From Chitinophagales bacterium (lineage in GTDB: Bacteria > Bacteroidota > Bacteroidia > Chitinophagales > Chitinophagaceae): 64,000 bases of DNA. Where the stretch lies: the NCBI GenBank assembly GCA_026936105.1, contig JAIXKI010000015.1:75498-139497 (forward strand), read 5' to 3'. The notes below the pieces were generated by a model, which was not told the DNA's origin, did not search any database, and saw only the letters and a program-made list of their open reading frames with translations. Positions 1,358 to 6,126 of the stretch are shown piece by piece (within the stretch, counting starts at the first letter, position 1; every line of letters begins with the position of its first letter). Both the position numbers and the translations under genes were made by a program.

Positions 1358-1548
1358 AAAAATTCAAATACGGTTATGCAAAGAAACATAATAAACTCAA
1401 ACACATTTCCACCGGAAACACCCTGCGAAATGCTGTTCTTCAACACATTTGAATAAAATCACATTTTAGAGAAATTATTTCATCCTATCACTACCGAAAA
1501 TTCTATCGCACATGAAAAAAAACGTGTCATAAAAACGTAAAAGAATAA

Positions 1549-1564
1549 AAGTACTTAAATACTT
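1549..1564. promoter_or_regulatory. Near-palindrome upstream of the RIC fusion gene, candidate Rrf2/NsrR operator
   Basis: AAGTACTTAAATACTT matches its own reverse complement at 14 of 16 positions. It ends 18 bp before a TATCTTTG -7 box, so it covers the expected -33 zone, where a repressor would block initiation. An NsrR-like Rrf2 gene lies in the same run of genes, which makes it the obvious candidate ligand. This is inference: no second copy was found in the cluster. Confidence 0.4.
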
Positions 1565-1582
1565 CTATTTTAAAAATCTCAT

Positions 1583-1622: not shown

Positions 1623-3110
1623 ATGCAAACAGCAAACGACATCGTTATCAATGTTCAGGAGATAGAACCAAGACTAAGACATCAAACCATATTTTATGTC
1701 TTCGACAACATACAGGAAGGTGAGAGTTTTGTAATTCACAACAATCACGATCCCCGCCCGGTATATTTTCAACTGATGGACATGCACGGAGATATTTTCA
1801 CCTGGGAATACCTGCAGCAGGGCCCCGAGTGGTGGGATATCAAAGTGACCAGGAAAGTGCTGTCAAGCCGACCGGCAAATGAATATAATTCAAAAGAAAA
1901 TGTGATCAATGTTCCTTCTTTAGAGCCGAGATTGAAACATGCCACCATCTTCGGAACTTTTGATAACCTGAAACCCGGCGAATCTTTCATCATCCACAAC
2001 GATCATGATCCCAAGCCGGTGTATTTTCAGCTGATGAGCATGCATGGCGATGTGTTCACCTGGGAATACCTGCAGCAAGGGCCTCAATGGTGGGATATCA
2101 GGGTAACCAGAAAAGGACAGGCACAGCCTGCAGCGAATGATGCCGTTACCAAACAGGGAAAAGATATTGTGATCAATGTGCCGGCTCTGGAACCAAGACT
2201 AAAACATCCTACCATCTTCAAAGTGTTCGACAGCCTGAATCCCGGTGAGAGCCTGGTGATCCATAATGACCATGACCCCAAACCACTCTATTATCAATTG
2301 CAGGGAGAACGGGGTGATGTGTTCACCTGGGAATATTTGCAACAGGGCCCGCAATGGTGGGATATCAGGGTAACCAGAAAAGGAACGGAAACCCATGAAA
2401 CCATCGGCGAAATCGTTGCCAAAGATCTTCGCAAATCAGAAGTGTTTAAAAAATACGGAATTGATTTTTGCTGCAACGGTAAGAAAACAATCCGTGAAGC
2501 TTGTGCCGCAATGGGAATTGATCCTGCAACGGTGGAACAGGAACTTCAGAAACCGGTGCAGGGAGTAGCAGCATCCGGCAGTGGAGCCATGAACTATGAT
2601 GAATGGGGGCTGGACTTCCTTTCCGATTACATCGTGAACACCCATCACCGGTACATCCGCAAATATTTGCCCGAGATCACCGGATATGCCAATAAAGTAG
2701 CGCATGTACATGGCGCAAACCACCCTGAATTGCTCAGGATAAATGAACTTGTACATGAACTAAGCAAAGAACTTCCTGATCACATCGGCAGTGAAGAAAA
2801 TAAACTATTCCCGGTGATCAAAGAGATTGTAAAAGCGAAAGATTCCAATACTGCTTATAACAGAAGCGGAAGTGAAAGCTTCAGGGCTCTGGTAGCAGAA
2901 TCGGAAAAAGAACACGACAGCGTAGGCGATGCCATGAAGGAGATCCGCAAGCTGAGCAAAGACTATGCAATTCCCGGTGACGCCTGCACCAGCTACAAAT
3001 TGCTTTATAAAATGCTGGAAGAATTCGAGAACGACTTGTTCGTGCACATCCACCTGGAGAATAACATACTCTTCCCGAAAGCAGTGGAAGCAGAAAAGAC
3101 ACTTGCTTAA
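1623..3110 (+). CDS. Triple DUF2249 - ScdA_N - hemerythrin fusion, RIC-type iron-sulfur cluster repair di-iron protein
   Basis: A 495-residue fusion. Three tandem DUF2249 domains lie at about 8-78, 93-164 and 183-253; each has a HN(D/N)HDP(K/R)P motif and ends in GP(E/Q)WWDI(K/R)VTRK. Then comes a ScdA_N/DUF542 domain (about 258-310, with the DFCCNG cysteine pair at 283-284) and an HHE hemerythrin-like domain (about 333-487). Candidate di-iron ligands H342, H363, H387, E391, H431, H475 and E479 follow E. coli YtfE spacing, except for about 13 extra residues between E391 and H431. RIC proteins restore Fe-S clusters damaged by NO or oxidants in the cytoplasm. Usual RIC proteins are about 220-245 residues and carry no or one such extra domain. 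First gene of the cluster. Confidence 0.92.
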   Translation: MQTANDIVINVQEIEPRLRHQTIFYVFDNIQEGESFVIHNNHDPRPVYFQLMDMHGDIFTWEYLQQGPEWWDIKVTRKVLSSRPANEYNSKENVINVPSLEPRLKHATIFGTFDNLKPGESFIIHNDHDPKPVYFQLMSMHGDVFTWEYLQQGPQWWDIRVTRKGQAQPAANDAVTKQGKDIVINVPALEPRLKHPTIFKVFDSLNPGESLVIHNDHDPKPLYYQLQGERGDVFTWEYLQQGPQWWDIRVTRKGTETHETIGEIVAKDLRKSEVFKKYGIDFCCNGKKTIREACAAMGIDPATVEQELQKPVQGVAASGSGAMNYDEWGLDFLSDYIVNTHHRYIRKYLPEITGYANKVAHVHGANHPELLRINELVHELSKELPDHIGSEENKLFPVIKEIVKAKDSNTAYNRSGSESFRALVAESEKEHDSVGDAMKEIRKLSKDYAIPGDACTSYKLLYKMLEEFENDLFVHIHLENNILFPKAVEAEKTLA

Positions 3111-3250: not shown

Positions 3251-4075
3251 ATGCTGATCAACGCACAGACAAAGATCGCAGCCCTGCTGAAGCATCACCC
3301 TGAAGCTTTGGAGACTATCATCACTTTAAGTCCTAACTTTAAAAAGCTGCGCAATCCCATTCTCCGCAAGCTCATGGCAGGGAGGACCAGCATTGCCATG
3401 GCTTCAAAGATAGGCGGATGTAAGCCTGAGGATTTTTTCAAGGCTCTGGCTCCCCTGGGATTTGAAGTGGATGACAAGGCCGTTGCAGAAGAGAAAACAC
3501 CGGAAAGCAAACCGATGCCTGACTTCCTGAAAAACCTGAAGCCGGAGCAGTTCATAAACTTTGATGTAAGGGCGATGATCGCAAGCGGTGATGATCCGTT
3601 GAGGCATATTCAGAAAAAAGTAAAAGAACTGAATCCCGGTGAAGCGCTTAAGATCATCAATAATTTTGAACCGGTTCCTCTGATCAAACTGCTGGAAAAA
3701 CAGGGATTCGAATCCTTTGTAAATTTCAAAGACAGTGAGACCATTGAAACTTATTTTTACAAAACTTCAGCCGGAAAAGCATCTGCATCATCTGAACCGG
3801 ATACGGAGATCACTGATGCAGGCGATTGGGATGAGTTGCTAAAACATTTCGAAAACAGGATGGAAGAAGTTGATGTCCGCCATCTTGAAGCGCCTCAACC
3901 GATGATGACCATACTGGAAGCTTTGGAAACCTTGCCTGAGGACAAAGCGTTGTACGTTCACCATAAAAGAATTCCTGTATTCCTGCTCACCGAATTAAAA
4001 GACCGCAACTTTGAATACCGGATCAAAGAAGTCCAGGAAGGAGAAGTGTATTTGCTGATCTTTAAAAACAGGTAA
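3251..4075 (+). CDS. DUF1858 - DUF2249 - DUF2249 protein
   Basis: A 274-residue soluble protein. Residues about 1-75 fit DUF1858 (helical; PNFKKLRNPILRK motif). A DUF2249 domain follows at about 103-170 (FDVRAMIASGDDPL, then NNFEPVPLI), and a more diverged second copy at about 205-272 (DVRHLEAPQPMMTILEALE). DUF2249 belongs to the SirA/TusA-like fold, and such proteins recur beside RIC, NnrS and denitrification genes, but their biochemical role is not settled. Gap to the next gene is 6 bp, so it is co-transcribed with the membrane protein. A role in NO-stress handling or sulfur transfer is inferred from context only. Confidence 0.8.
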   Translation: MLINAQTKIAALLKHHPEALETIITLSPNFKKLRNPILRKLMAGRTSIAMASKIGGCKPEDFFKALAPLGFEVDDKAVAEEKTPESKPMPDFLKNLKPEQFINFDVRAMIASGDDPLRHIQKKVKELNPGEALKIINNFEPVPLIKLLEKQGFESFVNFKDSETIETYFYKTSAGKASASSEPDTEITDAGDWDELLKHFENRMEEVDVRHLEAPQPMMTILEALETLPEDKALYVHHKRIPVFLLTELKDRNFEYRIKEVQEGEVYLLIFKNR

Positions 4076-4081
4076 GAGAAT

Positions 4082-5365
4082 ATGATGTCGCCATTGATGG
4101 GTGGGCTGCAGAAAACCACTAATTACAGGGTCGTATTGCCATTTTACATTTATGCATCCGTTTCTTTCCTGGTAGCAACGGTTCTGTTATTACTGCATAC
4201 CAACATCTTTGAGCATCATTATTTCTATCCTTACACGCTGGCCATCACTCATACTCTTGCATTAGGCTGGGGTACCATGACCATCCTCGGAGCGTCCCAT
4301 CAATTACTGCCGGTGCTGGTGGAAGGTAAACTGGATAGCGACACTCTTGCTTATCTCACTTTTATCTTTACCGCCATAGGCATTCCTGTTCTTATTGCAG
4401 GTTTTTATATTTTTCAAACCGGGTGGCTGATGCAGACAGGCGCTTCACTGGTGAATATAGGAGTGCTGTTTTATGTAATTAATGTTTTCAGCAGTTCATT
4501 TAAAAGCAAGAGAAGGAATGTGCATGCCTGGTATGTGATCACAGCCTCACTCTGGCTGTTCTCCACCACTTTCTTCGGATTGCTTCTTGTCTTCAATTTC
4601 AATAACGACATTCTTCCGAAAGATTCCCTCTCCTATCTTTCCATCCATGCCCATCTGGGACTGGTGGGCTGGTTTTTATTATTGGTGATCGGCGTCGGAT
4701 CAAGGCTGATCCCCATGTTCCTGATCTCAAAATACACCAACCCCAAAGGATTGTGGTGGATATTCGGCTTGATCAATGCAGGCCTTGTAAGTTTTATCGT
4801 ATTTAAAGTATGGGGCCTCTCTCCTCTCTCATATTATTTTTCCGTAGCCCTGATCCTGATTGCCATAGCATTGTTTGCCAGGCATTGCATCAAAGCATAT
4901 AAAGTGAGGATCAGGAGAAATGTGGATGAACAGATGAAGACCGCTTTAATCTCCGTGCTTCAGATGCTTCTCCCTTTTATTGCACTGATCGTTGTGCTTG
5001 CCCTGTTGCCGGTAGATCAGCACCCCAATATTGTTTTGCTTTACGGCTTTTGCATCCTGCTGGGCTGGATCACTGCAATCATCCTGGCCATGACTTTTAA
5101 GACACTTCCTTTCATCGTGTGGAATAAGGTGTATCATAAAAAAGCACATAAAGGAAAAACTCCGGTTCCCAAAGAACTATTCAGCGAGAAAGTGTATCAT
5201 GCCATGCTGATCGTTTATCTCGCAGGATTCGTGGTATTTATTTTCGGCATTATTTTCATTAATGAGATCACCCTGAAAACAGGCGCTGTGGCCTTGCTGG
5301 CAGCGGCGGTACTATATGTCTATAACACAGGAAAAACATTATTTCATCAACCTAAGAAACTATGA
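4082..5365 (+). CDS. Polytopic membrane protein, heme-copper oxidase subunit I-like / NnrS-like
   Basis: A 427-residue integral membrane protein with roughly 11-12 hydrophobic segments. Histidines sit in membrane contexts typical of heme-binding oxidase-like proteins: ITHTLALGWGTMTILGASHQ and SIHAHLGLVGWFLLL. Bacteroidota homologues are often labelled cytochrome c oxidase subunit I, but I do not see the full CuB ligand set or proton-channel motifs, and no partner subunits are encoded nearby. NnrS, a heme/copper NO-response protein of similar size and topology, is the best functional analogue given the RIC and Rrf2 neighbours. The stop overlaps the next start (ATGA at 5362-5365), so the DUF59 gene is translationally coupled. 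Confidence 0.7.
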   Translation: MMSPLMGGLQKTTNYRVVLPFYIYASVSFLVATVLLLLHTNIFEHHYFYPYTLAITHTLALGWGTMTILGASHQLLPVLVEGKLDSDTLAYLTFIFTAIGIPVLIAGFYIFQTGWLMQTGASLVNIGVLFYVINVFSSSFKSKRRNVHAWYVITASLWLFSTTFFGLLLVFNFNNDILPKDSLSYLSIHAHLGLVGWFLLLVIGVGSRLIPMFLISKYTNPKGLWWIFGLINAGLVSFIVFKVWGLSPLSYYFSVALILIAIALFARHCIKAYKVRIRRNVDEQMKTALISVLQMLLPFIALIVVLALLPVDQHPNIVLLYGFCILLGWITAIILAMTFKTLPFIVWNKVYHKKAHKGKTPVPKELFSEKVYHAMLIVYLAGFVVFIFGIIFINEITLKTGAVALLAAAVLYVYNTGKTLFHQPKKL

Positions 5366-5691
5366 GTGTAAACGTTCCAACCAACAACAAAGAAAGATGC
5401 GATTATGCATTGCAGGACTTGTACAATGTGTATGATCCCGAAGTGGGCTTAAACGTAGTGGACCTCGGATTGATCTACAACCTGGATTTCAATGAGGAAG
5501 AAAAGATCCTGGAAGCCACCATGACGCTGACGACCGAGTTTTGCCCGATGGGAGAAAGCATCACCAGCGATGTTACCCAGTCGCTGACCTATTCTTTTCC
5601 AGAATGGCAGATCCATGTGAACCTGACTTTTGATCCTCCCTGGAATTATACGATGATATCTCCTGAAGGAAATAAATTTTTGGGTCGTTAA
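5362..5691 (+). CDS. DUF59/MIP18-type metal-sulfur cluster assembly factor
   Basis: A 109-residue single-domain DUF59 protein. The hallmarks are YDPEVGLNVVDLGLIYNLDF and, later, TTEFCPMGESI with the conserved Cys. Members (SufT, PaaD-like, CIA2/MIP18) help mature Fe-S proteins or deliver clusters to selected targets in the cytoplasm. The ATGA overlap with the membrane protein and only 3 bp to the Rrf2 gene place it inside the repair operon, where it could re-metallate targets after NO damage. The specific client is unknown. Confidence 0.85.
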   Translation: MSVNVPTNNKERCDYALQDLYNVYDPEVGLNVVDLGLIYNLDFNEEEKILEATMTLTTEFCPMGESITSDVTQSLTYSFPEWQIHVNLTFDPPWNYTMISPEGNKFLGR

Positions 5692-5694
5692 GCT

Positions 5695-6126
5695 ATGTTG
5701 AGTCACACCTGTAAAACGGCAATAAAAGCGGTAGTGTACCTCTCCGGAAAAAGCGAGTCGGGAGAGAAAGCGGGCATTAAAGAGATTTCCGAACAAATCA
5801 ATGCCAGTGAACATACTGTGGGCAAAACATTACAGCTTCTTGCCAAACAAAAGATCATCAACAGCCTGAAAGGTCCTTCCGGAGGATTTTTTTTAACGGA
5901 ACGCCAGCAGGAACAACCTGTCTTTGATATCGTGGAAGCCATTGAAGGGAAAGGGATTTTTAAAAAATGCGGACTGGGCTTAAGTAAATGCTCTGAAACG
6001 CATCCCTGCCCGATCCACAATGAATACAAAGAGGCAAGAGAACTGATTGAAAAAATTTTTAGGGAAAAAAAGATCAGAGATCTCCACGATCATGTCAGTA
6101 ACGGAAAAGCATTTCTGATCGGGTGA
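5695..6126 (+). CDS. Rrf2-family transcriptional regulator, NsrR/IscR-like
   Basis: A 143-residue protein with an N-terminal winged helix (about 1-65; TCKTAIKAVVYLS start, ASEHTVGKTLQLL recognition region, then LKGPSGGFFL wing). Three cysteines follow in CGLGLSKCSETHPC (CX6CX5C), the spacing used by NsrR-type Rrf2 proteins to hold an Fe-S cluster that reacts with NO. It starts 3 bp after the DUF59 stop, so it is probably made from the same transcript and would regulate the cluster, perhaps through the near-palindrome at 1549-1564. IscR- or RsrR-like sensing remains possible. Confidence 0.88.
   Translation: MLSHTCKTAIKAVVYLSGKSESGEKAGIKEISEQINASEHTVGKTLQLLAKQKIINSLKGPSGGFFLTERQQEQPVFDIVEAIEGKGIFKKCGLGLSKCSETHPCPIHNEYKEARELIEKIFREKKIRDLHDHVSNGKAFLIG

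Follow-up and report, generated by a model that had tools for sequence, protein, structure and literature searches.

The gene at positions 1623 to 3110 of the DNA analysed here (the window, a stretch of 64,000 nucleotides from a contig of a Chitinophagales bacterium) encodes what its sequence marks as a genuine RIC (YtfE/ScdA-type) di-iron protein, preceded by an old array of three DUF2249 domains. Array-bearing RIC proteins are routine in this group and, as far as the literature was searched, uncharacterised. The explanation of the locus as a whole to which we incline, with a little more belief than doubt, is that a RIC protein carries an old docking or ligand-binding array and heads an iron-centre operon that would respond to NO and be repressed by an Rrf2-family regulator. 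The features of the region are:

1546..1567, no strand: palindrome, candidate regulator site 5' of the fusion gene, conserved in related upstream regions
1623..3110, + strand: fusion of three DUF2249 domains, ScdA_N, and hemerythrin (RIC), 495 aa, ATG start (ORF list, Pfam, NCBIfam)
1647..1853, + strand: DUF2249 copy 1, residues 9-77 (Pfam PF10006, above cut-off)
1905..2111, + strand: DUF2249 copy 2, residues 95-163 (Pfam PF10006)
2085..2117, + strand: 33-nt tract at the end of copy 2, identical to 2352-2384
2172..2378, + strand: DUF2249 copy 3, residues 184-252 (Pfam PF10006; fold predicted)
2352..2384, + strand: 33-nt tract at the end of copy 3, identical to 2085-2117
2397..2552, + strand: ScdA_N domain with C283-C284 (Pfam, residues checked)
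2631..3083, + strand: hemerythrin-type di-iron domain (Pfam; alignment with YtfE; top fold match YtfE)
3251..4075, + strand: second gene, DUF1858 and two DUF2249/TusA-like domains (Pfam)
4082..5365, + strand: third gene, hydrophobic membrane protein of 427 aa, without a Pfam or NCBIfam family
5362..5691, + strand: fourth gene, DUF59/FeS_assembly_P protein, SufT-like (Pfam, NCBIfam)
5695..6126, + strand: last gene, Rrf2-family regulator with three conserved cysteines (Pfam, NCBIfam)

The domain search agrees with the preliminary description of this DNA, which had placed three DUF2249 domains before a RIC-type protein. The whole protein matched DUF2249 in Pfam with an E value of 4.8e-72 spread over three stretches, and each of the three domains scored above the PF10006 cut-off when taken singly. 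ScdA_N (residues 259-310, E 1.1e-21) and Hemerythrin (residues 337-487, E 8.2e-20) follow, and the RIC family TIGR03652 covers the C-terminal part of the fusion with a score of 239 bits (NCBIfam cut-off, 204.7). The best PDB matches by sequence were YtfE and ScdA chains, which were also the best fold matches of the predicted full model (mean pLDDT 82.6, pTM 0.50), YtfE ranking first. The spacing of the HHE ligands had been said to be like that of YtfE; seven residues (H342, H363, H387, E391, H431, H475, and E479) indeed align with the YtfE di-iron ligand positions, their letters were verified, and the vicinal cysteines of YtfE-type proteins are kept as C283-C284. Four of the seven YtfE ligands, E133, E208, H129, and H160, are given in PMC9268430. 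Judged by these residues the RIC part would be active, in nitrite or NO chemistry or in iron donation. The role of YtfE itself is disputed: it has been described as a nitrite reductase that donates little iron (PMC9052748) and as an iron donor, the E. coli protein binding IscS and IscU (PMC8117158). The array is unlikely to be an assembly artefact, the same three copies being found at 98% identity in the sister MAG UTBCD1 (L069) and in genome G002; a phage origin was rejected, as no PHROGs match was present.

At the DNA level, the array consists of three 226-nt copies (1634-1859, 1892-2117, and 2159-2384), the first 70% and the third 74% identical to the middle one. Protein identity of the DUF2249 copies was 0.75 (copies 1 and 2), 0.68 (copies 1 and 3), and 0.80 (copies 2 and 3). 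They had been called near-duplicates, a label that suits the tract at the WWDIRVTRK end but somewhat overstates the likeness of the whole domains, which are only 68-80% identical. The near-identity of copies 2 and 3 at this end, claimed for the DNA as well, was borne out by an exact match of 33 nt, which in UTBCD1 is 36 nt long. Inside the domain, the longest identical run of copies 2 and 3 was 27 nt (P = 0.010 against random synonymous codons), and a 30-nt run between copies in L010 gave P = 0.003 under the same codon-usage null; the null was drawn from the usage of eight window genes, and both P values are for single pairs, uncorrected for the number of pairs or for the 17 proteins compared. 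On this sequence comparison the 33-nt tract appears mildly unusual. The longest inter-copy run was also near the WWDIRVTRK end in L011, L012, L014, and L047, and elsewhere in the other proteins.

A recent amplification, as the preliminary description had proposed, is contradicted by the divergence of the copies. Whole-domain dS was 2.83 between copies 1 and 3 and saturated for the other two pairs, versus 0.183 between the fusion gene and its counterpart in UTBCD1. In a tree of 72 domains and 69 columns, in which 32 of 68 inner branches are unresolved, one group united eleven first copies of families f1, f8, f18, and f19, copy 1 of this protein among them (support 94/89, not starred). This group did not include the first copies of L012, L043, L046, L049, and L052, nor those of the two-copy proteins L058, L013, and L063. 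Because the copies have diverged to a dS of 2.83 or to saturation, and because copy 1 groups with first copies from other families, the array is, by these sequence measures, old. Over the last 57 nt, dS was 1.12 for copies 2 and 3 and 1.65 for copies 1 and 2. A short, old gene-conversion tract between copies 2 and 3 is thus possible, and the identical tract may stem either from local conversion or from local constraint. The array is constrained more strongly than the enzyme part, as estimated from dN/dS of about 0.035 versus about 0.10, values derived from 4.5 and 8.8 nonsynonymous changes and few substitutions. The two-copy fusions of L013 and L063 have a very divergent first DUF2249 (branch 1.46) and a typical second one; their extra domain is perhaps of different origin.

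The prospect had been raised that triple-DUF2249 RIC proteins are routine and already characterised. Routine they are, as fusions with one to five copies recur in this group; no characterisation was found in the searched literature. Among 396 genomes of the order, 158 matched a single-DUF2249-RIC query at E ≤1e-30, many of these matches being RIC without DUF2249. Two sets of loci were counted, both chosen by similarity to this protein and so leaning to many copies: the best 30 loci of the order scan held one DUF2249 in 14 cases, two in 4, three in 8 (this one included), four in 2, and five in 2, and the best 80 of 374 relatives confirmed in a scan of named genomes gave 79 fusion frames with one copy in 22, two in 10, three in 30, four in 14, and five in 3. 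One of these 80 loci (L105) had no RIC frame passing the filter, and the 80 loci are not 80 genomes, as some MAGs contribute two. In a sample of the phylum, 15 of 395 genomes matched at E ≤1e-66, a cut-off that loses more distant fusions; 11 of the 15 matches include DUF2249, and by frame length one of these has three copies (this genome), one has two, and the rest have one. On the best tree of the RIC domain (79 rows, with 25 of 76 inner branches unresolved and row L142 very long), 18 changes of copy number are needed. Among cultured relatives, Amniculibacterium aquaticum KYPW7 (L128) has three copies and Segetibacter koreensis DSM 18137 (L130) has one. Since one-copy fusions also lead the conserved gene cluster, the basic function does not depend on a triple array.

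DUF2249 genes were also observed outside the fusion. A one-domain DUF2249 gene lies directly 5' of a one-copy DUF2249-RIC gene in L122, L124, L125, and L138, an arrangement that is possibly an intermediate between gene duplication and fusion. A second, unfused triple-DUF2249 protein is encoded in this genome (L153:7467-8288; G000:C2:145478-146191). Close relatives of this protein, of which 14 scored above 350, all without cysteine, are encoded within the cluster or close to it at some of the named loci. The ten proteins scanned around the stand-alone gene included thioredoxin, YceI, lipoate ligase, and others, and no NO gene.

The five-gene order headed by the fusion was complete in 65 of the 80 named loci and cut by contig ends in 9 more; most of the cluster was missing despite remaining contig in 5 (L083, L125, L131, L142, and L146), and L105 was unscored. 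In the window, genes 2 to 5 of the cluster are separated by 6 nt, an overlap of 4, and 3 nt, and the cluster is probably one operon, its co-transcription being suggested by this arrangement. Of the 80 named loci, 72 held the second gene and 71 the membrane protein. The membrane protein (4082-5365) had no match in the PDB, and six of its histidines each recur in at least 90% of the 72 relatives aligned. It may resemble heme-copper oxidase homologues. NnrS was considered for this protein and rejected, as the genome has no PF05940 match at E 10 or better.

The palindrome in front of the cluster has a 22-nt consensus (TAAAAGTAyTTAAATACTTTTA) and begins 56-101 nt 5' of the assumed start codon. It was found in 72 of 78 upstream regions with at most 5 of 22 mismatches and in 57 with at most 3, while 17 of 1560 shuffled upstream regions reached 5 mismatches and none reached 3, a control that is somewhat flattering because the loci scored for the palindrome are also those from which its pattern was derived. 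The copy in the window has 1 mismatch to the 20-nt core and is the only place in the genome with fewer than 3; the next is a single place with 3. The 20-nt pattern gave 4 genomic hits at up to 3 mismatches versus 5 for the reversed control, which is no excess, and with one other place at 3 mismatches no regulon beyond the cluster is claimed. In L122, L124, and L138, the palindrome sits before the small DUF2249 gene; in L125 it was not found.

The protein encoded by the last gene scored above the Rrf2 superfamily cut-off of NCBIfam, below the cut-off for IscR, and far below that for NsrR (25.6 bits versus 182). Each of C92, C99, and C105 is kept by at least 90% of the 72 sequences aligned, and their spacing is x6, x5 versus x5, x5 in S. 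coelicolor NsrR, where C93, C99, and C105 are the cluster ligands (PMC9338935). The palindrome departs from the NsrR consensus in the literature, gATGyAT-N5-ATrCATc (PMC1274295). By analogy the regulator would be NsrR-like in action only, and we infer NO as its signal; this signal may be other than NO, because the NsrR score is far under the cut-off and the palindrome is unlike the NsrR consensus.

A single DUF2249 domain was predicted to fold as strand-helix-strand-helix-strand-strand (pLDDT 94.2). Its list of structural matches was headed by TsuB/TusA (Z 8.1-8.6), with which Alba, IF3-C, and other folds, within 1 of these scores, are tied. Foldseek with the single domain gave no match at E ≤0.001 (best, HP1264 at 5.5e-3), and the DUF2249 profile gave no credible match among PDB sequences (best E, 0.27). 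As separate support from the sequence side, the second gene of the cluster matched Pfam TusA at E 1e-7, and hhalign aligned its domain with the array domain at E 1.4e-4, with a probability of only 53%; no match was found on comparing profiles of the array domain and the second-gene domain with one Halorussus TusA protein. All 101 sampled related domains match DUF2249 (PF10006), and P14, H18, N38, H40, P42, P44, W59, Y61, and G65 are invariant in all of them; each DUF2249 module keeps the motifs P-x3-H and N-x-H-x-P-x-P. Cysteine is absent from residues 1-282 of the fusion and from 198 of 203 domains in related fusions. In the hhalign register, the TusA cysteine position, which we take to be the cysteine of the CPxP motif, falls on an invariant proline in the array and, in the last domain of the second gene, on methionine in 69 and alanine in 3 of 72 sequences. 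TusA proper was not found in 24 relatives including this genome, the two matches, both below the cut-off, being the second gene and the G002 orthologue. Based on the prediction and the alignments, the DUF2249 modules are probably TusA-like folds without the TusA cysteine.

In the reading that we prefer, an old DUF2249 array of variable length would have been joined to the N-terminus of a RIC protein whose gene stands first in the conserved cluster. The Rrf2 regulator at the end of the cluster would probably repress it through the palindrome, and NO or a similar stress would destroy the Fe-S cluster of the regulator and lift the repression. The RIC part would then perform YtfE-type chemistry, acting on nitrite or NO at the di-iron site, delivering iron to damaged Fe-S proteins, or both. 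The DUF2249 modules would most likely be a set of equivalent arms, for docking or for ligand binding, and would keep the enzyme near a partner; candidates for this partner are the second protein with its TusA-like domains, the membrane protein, and the Fe-S assembly machinery. Parallel docking or ligand sites are suggested because the modules are equivalent, constrained, and countable. In a concrete form of docking, the array may bind the Fe-S machinery, by analogy with the binding of IscS and IscU by YtfE and with the complex of TusA and IscS (title of 3lvj).

The idea put forward on first reading, that the array might relay sulfur to the repair site, here taken as carriage of persulfide, could draw on the probable TusA-like fold and on the TusA-family gene that follows ric in Halorussus. 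The lack of cysteine in the array, together with an invariant proline where TusA has its cysteine, makes it unlikely that the array transfers sulfur; with cysteine missing from nearly all domains of related fusions as well, and methionine or alanine at this position in the second gene, we consider such a relay highly improbable. The invariant histidines would suit a buffer in which every DUF2249 domain holds iron, haem, nitrite, or NO and the number of copies sets the capacity next to the di-iron site. In the predicted topology, H18 and H40 lie at the meeting point of the strand-loop-helix starts, close to the position of the TusA active site; the frequent change of copy number on the RIC tree and the ties of DUF2249 proteins to denitrification (PMC11218638; PMC6282519) are also consistent with a buffer. 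Conserved His, Pro, and Trp sites serve protein docking too, however, and the PDB has no ligand-bound relative by sequence, so that we regard the buffer as possible though on balance not probable.

Array length might also simply drift, extra copies adding nothing, as a copy number of one to five that often changes on the tree would allow. Such inconsequential expansion is quite unlikely for copies that are old in dS yet constrained (dN/dS about 0.035, from few substitutions) and that retain the invariant residues in all three cases. Just as unlikely, in our view, is a sensor role like the one proposed for DrpA, with the array detecting nitrate or nitrite and controlling RIC or its partners. 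RIC proteins are cytoplasmic, the fusion is expected to be so, and the cluster already encodes its own regulator. DrpA, in contrast, was found in the periplasm, although DrpA/DrpB affect nitrate-dependent expression in Thermus (PMC6282519) and one Haloferax protein shares histidines with DrpA (PMC11218638).

The docking or ligand array can be taken further than we can readily defend: DUF2249 would be derived from TusA, its persulfide cysteine swapped for an invariant His/Pro site that makes it a module for nitrogen-oxide or iron ligands, and one to five such modules would form an adjustable ligand store or docking arm in an undescribed NO-defence pathway of Bacteroidota. We hold this extension to be doubtful. 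If it is true, the partners of RIC are a TusA-like protein that lacks the cysteine and a membrane protein of a new kind that contains histidines, and haloarchaea have a parallel pairing of DUF2249 array and RIC.

DUF2249 has no known biochemical role and no credible PDB relative by sequence. Its function is directly testable here, because it is fused in one to five copies to a well-studied enzyme whose gene cluster encodes a regulator and has a candidate site. UTBCD1, whose protein is 98% identical to this fusion, is genome BCD1 of an anammox reactor and expresses genes for NO reductase and N2O reductase (nosZ) (PMC5460018). This sister organism inhabits anammox granules, where the handling of NO bears on nitrogen removal and on the release of N2O. 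In the present genome, a plain RIC gene (G000:C14:89870-92849; L156) was observed about 1.1 kb from a 473-aa frame of the COX1 family on the opposite strand, which is of NorB size and scored 97 bits.

No characterised DUF2249-RIC fusion was found in the searched literature; subscription papers were mostly outside the search, and an earlier description is possible. No listed title of a search on YtfE fusions had such a fusion, the words "DUF" and "fusion" are absent from the main text of the RIC review PMC9268430, and DUF2249 together with TusA was not found in the literature searched. There, DUF2249 occurred only in PMC11218638 and PMC6282519, both linking it to denitrification. Four DUF2249 genes of Haloferax mediterranei are induced under denitrification (PMC11218638), DrpA acts in Thermus nitrate respiration, and combinations of DUF2249 with hemerythrin domains are mentioned (PMC6282519).

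Compared with known systems, the fusion is like YtfE, ScdA, and DnrN (TIGR03652) in its ScdA_N vicinal cysteines, hemerythrin-type domain, and ligand residues, and differs from them in its three N-terminal DUF2249 domains and in its gene neighbourhood, another cluster that encodes an Rrf2 regulator of its own. With DrpA and the four Haloferax mediterranei proteins it shares the domain and the denitrification link (PMC6282519; PMC11218638), but DrpA is one small domain, reported as periplasmic, without a RIC part (PMC6282519). TusA and TsuB resemble DUF2249 in predicted strand-helix order, as the top structural matches (tied with other folds), and through a weak profile link via the second gene; they have a catalytic cysteine, whereas DUF2249 has a proline there and the His/Pro motifs. 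NsrR-controlled dnrN/ytfE genes likewise have a palindrome in front of ric and a three-cysteine regulator of the Rrf2 family, but the regulator here scores under the NsrR and IscR cut-offs, and its palindrome differs and has one close genomic site. In five plasmid records of haloarchaea, two adjacent genes, DUF2249 and ric, together match at least 80% of the fusion; in the two of these records examined more closely, from Halorussus limi and Haloarcula hispanica (L149:5746-7630 and L150:5752-7603), a four-domain DUF2249 gene lies directly 5' of ric. An array is coupled to RIC there too, but as two separate genes with four domains and without fusion, and the haloarchaeal pairing is independent of the Bacteroidota fusion.
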